Shown: one piece after another, positions 23,693 to 24,153 of the stretch | Position numbering within the stretch: the stretch's first letter is position 1 | How the letters are laid out: each line of letters begins with the position of its first letter | From: Kaistia terrae | GTDB taxonomy: Bacteria; Pseudomonadota; Alphaproteobacteria; Rhizobiales; Kaistiaceae | Length of the DNA stretch: 64,000 nt | Direction: 5' to 3' | NCBI RefSeq assembly: GCF_026344005.1 | Contig: NZ_JAPKNH010000010.1 | Coordinates: 1 to 64,000, forward strand | Translations under genes and position numbers: made by a program | Notes under the pieces: model-generated | What the model was told of the DNA's origin: nothing | Seen by the model: only the letters and a program-made list of their open reading frames with translations | Databases searched by the model: none

Positions 23693-23820
23693 CCATAAAA
23701 AAAGCGCCCGTCGGGGAGGAGGTCGACGGGCGCTTTAGTTGATGGTGCCGCACAAGGGAGGAGGTTTGTGGGCACCTAATCGCAGGGAACAAGGGAGGAG
23801 GTTTGTTCCCTGACGAATCT
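23693..23820 (-). ncRNA. CcsR-type ('cuckoo') sRNA array: three CCUCCUCCC-loop hairpins
   Basis: Read on the minus strand, three consecutive hairpins each present the identical loop ACCTCCTCCC: 23783-23812 (10-bp perfect stem), 23744-23776 (11-bp stem with one bulge) and 23701-23736 (13-bp perfect stem followed by a T-tract, hence an intrinsic terminator). They begin 15 bp after the DUF1127 stop codon. This is the arrangement known for CcaF1-CcsR in Rhodobacter and for the cuckoo RNAs of Rhizobiales: stress-induced sRNAs processed from the 3' UTR of a DUF1127 mRNA. The CCUCCUCCC loop is an anti-Shine-Dalgarno sequence. Identity rests on motif, fold and location. Confidence 0.85.
23701..23736 (-). 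terminator. Intrinsic terminator, third CCUCCUCCC hairpin
   Basis: AAAGCGCCCGTCG/CGACGGGCGCTTT, a perfect 13-bp stem with the ACCTCCTCCC loop; on the minus strand the stem runs into TTTTTTT. It ends the DUF1127-sRNA transcript and doubles as the third regulatory hairpin. Confidence 0.88.
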
Positions 23821-23827
23821 CGAATTC

Positions 23828-23983
23828 CTAGTAGCCGGCTGCCTGCTTGGCGATCGACTTGATGTCGTGGCGGCTGATGCCCAGATCAGCGAGCTCGCGG
23901 TTGTCCAGGCGGGACAGTTCGCTGCGGGTCTCGCGATACTTGAGCCAGGTCTTGTAGGAGGACATGAGGTTCGTAGCCATCAT
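23828..23983 (-). CDS. DUF1127 small protein (CcaF1-like)
   Basis: A 51-residue Arg-rich protein with the DUF1127 core (YRETRSELSRLDNRELADLG, then ISRHDIKSIAKQAAGY). Such small proteins act in phosphate and carbon metabolism and, as CcaF1 in Rhodobacter, bind RNA and influence sRNA maturation. AGGAAAGGA precedes the ATG pair; the first ATG (23983) is chosen. A longer frame to 24154 has no coding character. It is followed at once by the three-hairpin sRNA array, and palindromes lie upstream. DUF1127 genes are known targets of the LysR regulator VtlR/LsrB in Brucella and Agrobacterium. Confidence 0.9.
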   Translation of the reverse strand: MMATNLMSSYKTWLKYRETRSELSRLDNRELADLGISRHDIKSIAKQAAGY

Positions 23984-24123
23984 CGGTTCCTTTCCTGGTG
24001 GCCGCTTCGTCTGGCGCCGGATTTCTCTGTCGCCGTCTTGTTGATTGGAATTTAGTCCGCTCCTTCCCGGATGAGCAGTATGAAAAAAATCATGCCAGCA
24101 TTGCGCTGAATGCAGAGCAGCAT

Positions 24124-24153
24124 CTGCAATGCAGTAATTGCTGCGGTGCAGCA
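24124..24153. promoter_or_regulatory. Paired palindromes upstream of the DUF1127-sRNA unit
   Basis: CTGCAATGCAG (24124-24134, 5+1+5) and TGCTGCGGTGCAGCA (24139-24153, 6+3+6) are perfect inverted repeats 4 bp apart, about 140-170 bp upstream of the DUF1127 start. Spacing and symmetry suit a LysR-type tetramer site. VtlR/LsrB is the obvious candidate from its known control of DUF1127 genes in relatives, but this link is inference. Confidence 0.4.

Follow-up and report, generated by a model that had tools for sequence, protein, structure and literature searches.

A short DUF1127 gene followed by an ar14 (NfeR1-type) small RNA in Kaistia terrae, with a candidate LsrB/VtlR site upstream and predicted targets among uptake genes

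RNAs of three and four hairpins that carry the anti-Shine-Dalgarno loop CCUCCUCCC were reported from the Rhizobiales in 2011, according to the available text of PMC3927594. The founder of the ar14 family of such RNAs is NfeR1 (Smr14C2) of Sinorhizobium meliloti, a 123-nt RNA with three hairpins, CCUCCUCCC in each loop and drifting stems, which has its own promoter. The accessible portions of PMC10746234 describe activation of NfeR1 by LsrB, with a T-N11-A box in the stretch from -72 to -60 of its promoter as the LsrB motif, and silencing of S. meliloti targets via three redundant motifs. The published NfeR1 candidates are mostly ABC transport systems, and two periplasmic components were tested with reporters (PMC10746234, same portions).

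The association of DUF1127 genes with cuckoo RNAs has likewise been published, under the name "CIN1 locus". In Rhodobacter sphaeroides this locus is CcaF1-CcsR1-4 (CcsR1 being RF02791), with four RNAs: behind a short DUF1127 gene, whose product has 71 aa against the 50 or 51 aa of the gene analysed here, come hairpins with CCUCCUCCC and then a terminator. The available text of PMC10253847 describes a promoter of the RpoHI/RpoHII type and an RNA-binding CcaF1 protein that is co-transcribed with the CcsRs. A third group of short DUF1127 genes is known for its regulator. VtlR binds the promoter of Agrobacterium atu1667 and activates short Brucella DUF1127 genes (PMC7486931 and PMC12595884, in the portions available; the latter prints the VtlR motif for Brucella), and the accessible text of PMC12501420 reports that Agrobacterium short DUF1127 proteins act via the sensor kinase PhoR. 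No ar14 tail is mentioned for the atu1667 and Brucella genes in the available portions of these sources, one of which leaves an RNA action of atu1667 possible.

The window analysed here, a stretch of 64,000 nucleotides (64 kb) from Kaistia terrae, carries a short DUF1127 gene with an array of three hairpins directly behind it. The features are as follows.

23828 to 23983, minus strand: DUF1127 gene, 50 or 51 aa (two consecutive ATG codons), stop codon counted in.
23699 to 23821, minus strand: ar14 small RNA (Rfam RF02344), 123 nt, 79.1 bits (cut-off 58.8), E 1.3e-12.
23780 to 23816, minus strand: hairpin 1, loop ACCTCCTCCC at 23793-23802.
23744 to 23776, minus strand: hairpin 2, loop ACCTCCTCCC at 23756-23765.
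23694 to 23736, minus strand: hairpin 3, comprising the stem-loop 23701-23736 and a T run at 23694-23700, loop ACCTCCTCCC at 23714-23723.

The gene was recognised by a Pfam profile search (PF06568, 51.8 bits, E 6.5e-14) and ends in a TAG stop codon at 23830-23828 on the minus strand. Its neighbours on that strand are a DUF1275 gene upstream and a DUF1993 gene downstream; an FGGY-family carbohydrate kinase gene lies farther out on the opposite strand. When the whole 64 kb was compared with Rfam by cmscan at the curated cut-offs, the sole match was RF02344 (ar14), covering model positions 1-123 of 123. The CcsR1 model (RF02791) overlaps the array with 33.4 bits (E 3.4e-6), below its cut-off of 65.3. 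The three hairpins each present an unpaired CCUCCUCCC, as in ar14, and the short DUF1127 gene stands immediately upstream on the same strand, as in the CIN1 locus. By its sequence, the array is a member of the ar14 (cuckoo RNA/NfeR1) family and not CcsR1. The original prediction had described a CcaF1-CcsR/cuckoo arrangement and suggested a covariance search; a cuckoo-type RNA does lie behind the DUF1127 gene, but the model scores place it in ar14 rather than with CcsR1. Since the Rhizobiales CCUCCUCCC RNAs, NfeR1 as the ar14 founder and the DUF1127 association were already published, the locus family and its arrangement are not new, and the locus adds one more case of a known kind.

The outer pairs of hairpin 1 start at 23816 and its 10-bp stem at 23812, 15 nt past the DUF1127 stop codon. 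All three loops are ACCTCCTCCC, and the stem sequences are unlike each other. The identical 10-nt loops, their position behind the gene and the differing stems were thus correctly described in the original prediction, whose reading of the loops as anti-Shine-Dalgarno sequences agrees with the loop sequence. The sequence CCTCCTCCC has three copies in the 64 kb, every one inside the array on the minus strand; shuffled sequences had a mean of 0.54 copies, with three or more anywhere in 5 of 100, and three copies within 120 nt were obtained in 0 of 300 simulated windows. The array folds at -58.7 kcal/mol, compared with -30.6 +/- 3.4 kcal/mol in shuffles (n=200, z -8.35), none of which was equally stable. 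Hairpin 3 with its T run is a probable intrinsic terminator, as had been proposed. A terminator scan that accepts loops of 3-8 nt did not call hairpin 3, with its loop of 10 nt; the terminator reading is therefore based on a stem of 13 bp with the T run at 23700-23694 behind it.

The association of the array with DUF1127 is maintained across the family. An ar14 match was found in 27 of 28 family genomes at E 0.001, and above the cut-off in 22. In these 28 genomes, 55 of 63 ar14 matches have a same-strand DUF1127 match ahead of them at a distance of no more than 500 nt. The end of the DUF1127 profile match is 24-65 nt away for 53 of the 55; the other two, both second arrays, lie at distances of 235 and 243 nt. 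Linkage rises to 49 of 51 among matches above the cut-off, with 6 of the 8 unlinked matches falling under it. Viewed from the 102 DUF1127 matches of the family, 52 of 58 scoring at least 43 bits are linked to ar14, compared with 1 of 44 weaker ones. The window genome has three ar14 loci and five DUF1127 matches, each ar14 standing directly behind one of the three best-scoring DUF1127 genes. Under stricter filters, RF02344 matched in 8 of 192 genomes of the class, including the window genome, and was above the cut-off in 1.

Some loci depart from this layout. Two tandem ar14 matches follow a single DUF1127 gene at G001:C16 and at G002:C35. In three genomes of one family genus no DUF1127 gene accompanies the arrays (L032, L033 and L034), several of whose loops are changed, for example to CCTCCTTCC and CCCTCCCTC; a LysR-box-like sequence is still present upstream. 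A three-loop scan of named genomes returned at least 120 stretches, and the matches listed comprise 133 arrays: 54 linked to DUF1127 (9 of them second arrays after the same gene), 75 unlinked (63 Hyphomicrobiales, 2 Rhodobacterales and 10 in non-alpha records, sorted by record title) and 4 cut. Nine Rhodobacterales loci have 8-12 loops per DUF1127 gene, so that loop number is very variable, and at five loci the 170 nt before the linked DUF1127 gene seem, by eye, to end another DUF1127-like gene, giving tandem genes.

We consider it likely that LsrB activates a DUF1127 mRNA at this locus and that the 3' end of this mRNA, an anti-Shine-Dalgarno RNA, silences uptake genes. A LysR activator of the LsrB/VtlR kind would drive a single transcript that carries the short DUF1127 gene and closes with ar14. 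No promoter was recognised between the gene and ar14, so the RNA would probably be cut from the mRNA, like CcsR of Rhodobacter, or be a 3' untranslated region. The three equivalent ACCUCCUCCC loops would then base-pair with Shine-Dalgarno sequences resembling GGGAGGAGG and prevent the translation of mRNAs, chiefly those that encode substrate-binding proteins of uptake systems. The sequence itself shows the RNA family, the covarying stems, the link to DUF1127, the promoter box and the enrichment of one target class; that the RNA is expressed and processed, that LsrB binds and that targets are silenced is what we infer.

The target class was predicted from the ribosome sites of the genome. The loop is complementary to GGGAGGAGGT. 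The pattern GGGAGGAGG-N3-10-ATG occurs twice, against once for the reversed pattern, and both sites precede substrate-binding-protein genes (SBP_bac_1; Peripla_BP_6). The pattern GGAGGAG-N4-11-ATG was found at 99 sites and its reverse at 18. After overlaps were merged the 99 sites gave 95 stretches and 62 open frames of at least 60 aa, 33 shorter ones being left out. At least 19 of the 62 frames encode substrate-binding proteins, judged by Pfam from the best 25 of 52 families and from single scans of 23 proteins with signal-like N-termini, 19 of which matched; the remaining 43 frames were not recognised as such proteins, and some frames may be spurious.

Three comparison sets, unequal in size, were analysed in the same way. 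The first was AAGGAGA, which we take, from the 16S tail, to be a good ribosome site with a poorer fit to the ar14 loops. It gave 95 matches in 94 stretches and 69 frames (25 dropped), with 1 substrate-binding protein seen among the best 25 of 84 families and in single scans of 9 signal-like and 2 other proteins (Fisher P 2e-6 against GGAGGAG). The second, AAGGAGG, was represented by a non-random 50 of its 81 matches and gave 23 frames (27 dropped, one frame common to the GGAGGAG set), with 1 substrate-binding protein among the best 25 of 26 families (P 0.01). The third was GGAGGAG itself in a genome of the same order in which no ar14 was detected under stricter filters: 30 of 48 matches gave 22 frames (8 dropped), with no substrate-binding protein among the best 25 of 33 families (P 0.002, unscaled for the total in that genome). 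The enrichment marks a gene class, not a mechanism, and the predicted class agrees with the published NfeR1 candidates. The loops had originally been proposed to titrate ribosome sites or an RNA-binding protein; from the GGAGGAG enrichment, silencing of ABC-uptake mRNAs appears likelier.

Individual candidates gave mixed results. The S. meliloti NfeR1 target ntrB is not an obvious target in the window genome and was rejected, its site being merely AGGAG, with 5 pairable bases and -7.4 kcal/mol. In the leader of the window gene, GGGAAGGAG at 24068-24060 could form a bulged duplex with the loop at -13.5 kcal/mol; it lies upstream of the inferred transcription start, and the idea of autoregulation was therefore dropped. 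A fourth DUF1127 gene of the window genome, unlinked to ar14 and encoding 48 aa (G000:C12:717113-717244), has a GGAGGAG ribosome site that pairs with an ar14 loop at -13.8 kcal/mol, and cross-regulation of paralogues by ar14 is possible.

GGAGGAG is itself a Shine-Dalgarno sequence, and the enrichment could for that reason reflect translation strength or the action of another RNA, such as AbcR, with ar14 an innocent neighbour. Substrate-binding proteins are frequently produced at high level, which speaks for a strong ribosome site as the common factor. For AbcR, the accessible text of PMC10746234 describes S. meliloti RNAs whose motifs are similar and whose predicted regulon overlaps. However, the other Shine-Dalgarno sequences yielded only 1 of 69 and 1 of 23, and the ar14-less genome of the same order 0 of 22 seen, again unscaled for its substrate-binding-protein total. 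A search of the window genome for AbcR (RF02345, ar15) gave no match, but the control genomes gave none either, so that AbcR may still be present. Taken together, we regard an uninvolved ar14 as unlikely, though worth keeping in view.

In the region upstream of the gene, the following elements were found.

24102 to 24114, minus strand: TGCATTCAGCGCA, a LysR-type dyad of the form T-N11-A at roughly -71 to -59 relative to the inferred start; candidate site for LsrB/VtlR.
24089 to 24103, minus strand: CAATGCTGGCATGAT, VtlR-like box overlapping the dyad, 11/15 identical to the printed Brucella VtlR motif.
24078 to 24072, minus strand: weak -35-like CTGCTCA, upstream of the -10-like element.
24050 to 24055, minus strand: -10-like CTAAAT, with the transcription start inferred near 24043.

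A sigma-70 consensus scan found no promoter upstream of DUF1127; an element similar to CTAAAT is seen by eye at the same place in other family leaders. The dyad, whose position depends on the start inferred from this -10-like element, would lie at the LsrB position of the T-N11-A box of NfeR1. The two systems differ in that NfeR1 has its own promoter, whereas the window RNA comes straight after the DUF1127 gene. The VtlR-like box is weak taken alone, at least 11 of 15 identities being reached in 9% of shuffled regions; across the family, 16 of 32 loci have such a match, against the same 9% of shuffles. Of the 32 family loci, 28 have the dyad in the form TGC-N7-GCA upstream, where 3.6 would be expected (maximum 9 in 100 shuffles), a count inflated by kinship, as 19 of the 32 loci belong to the genus of the window and all 19 have it; outside the genus it was found in 9 of 13, and its position is not constant. 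Among the matches listed from named genomes, sorted by record title, 42 of the 63 Hyphomicrobiales arrays that stand alone have it upstream, compared with an expectation of 8.6, as do 16 of the 23 linked ones, compared with 2.7. The count for Rhodobacterales (15 of 17) was set aside because start codons there seem to be placed too far downstream. The -35/-10 pattern of the NfeR1 type was found before a single one of these 63 stand-alone arrays, and the other groups among the matches listed had none; either the pattern is too strict or the core promoter is variable. By eye, a second TGCTGC...GCA-like element lies about 40 nt upstream of the dyad in the window (approximately 24155-24143, minus strand) and in L002 and L003, as if two regulator dimers were to bind.

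These observations suggest that the upstream region resembles one under LsrB/VtlR-type control through the candidate site. Because VtlR acts on DUF1127 genes and LsrB on NfeR1, one type of regulator may serve both DUF1127 and ar14; the window gene also shares with atu1667 and the Brucella genes a short protein and a similar LysR-type box. The original prediction had placed the locus in a stress regulon; CcaF1-CcsR has an RpoHI/RpoHII promoter, whereas the region here looks more like the LsrB-activated promoter of NfeR1. In a stress element of the CcaF1-CcsR kind, heat-shock sigma factors would drive the locus, the DUF1127 protein would bind and mature the RNA, and the role would lie in C1 metabolism and stress defence. 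Gene order and loops are indeed alike, the CcsR1 model overlaps the array at the 33.4 bits (E 3.4e-6) given above, and CcaF1, according to PMC10253847, binds RNA and shares its transcript with the CcsRs. However, that score is under the cut-off of 65.3, a LysR-type dyad stands upstream of DUF1127, and linked Rhodobacterales arrays among the matches listed have 3-12 loops. We consider a stress element of this kind improbable here.

The pairing pattern of the hairpins is what would be expected if the loop is conserved while its stem drifts freely. In 32 distinct family hairpins, 5.47 of 7 stem positions pair, versus 3.61 after swapping of arms (maximum of 300 swaps 4.16), and in 353 distinct hairpins of named alphaproteobacteria, among the matches listed, 4.41 of 7 pair versus 3.00 (maximum 3.14); since related sequences are not independent, these values give orientation rather than an exact test. 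The 30 hairpins from ten non-alpha pattern matches listed showed no pairing (2.1 versus 2.92 swapped), and these matches are therefore probably chance or repeats. When 29 loci were aligned with MAFFT and folded with RNAalifold, 18 pairs resulted, 12 of them with changes on both sides, but hairpin 2 stayed unpaired, probably because of misalignment, and the arm-swap test was used in its place. The claim of conserved loops with compensating stems is thereby borne out, the arm-swap test exceeding its controls and the loops being kept in the family. That ar14 serves its own mRNA alone, with hairpins and terminator protecting the DUF1127 transcript and the loops binding a protein rather than mRNAs, would suit an array directly behind the stop codon that ends in a probable terminator, but is very improbable in view of the constant loops on drifting stems, the frequency of DUF1127-less arrays (75 of 133 among the matches listed, 10 of them non-alpha) and the coherent gene class marked by the loop complements.

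A literature search, with several key papers outside its reach, found no paper joining LsrB, DUF1127 and ar14, and no ar14 experiment in this bacterium. The promoter type of LsrB/VtlR seems common to stand-alone and DUF1127-linked ar14, and the genome count ties the ar14 loops to one gene class, the substrate-binding proteins, a link that is testable. More tentatively, the three DUF1127 mRNAs with ar14 tails, if driven by LsrB, might constitute the main anti-Shine-Dalgarno brake on ABC uptake in this lineage, acting on at least 19 substrate-binding-protein genes, filling the role that AbcR has elsewhere and perhaps repressing the fourth, unlinked DUF1127 gene. If such a brake exists, some phenotypes credited to short DUF1127 proteins would belong to the RNA at the 3' end, and deletion of a short DUF1127 gene should be interpreted with caution, as it may take out an RNA too.
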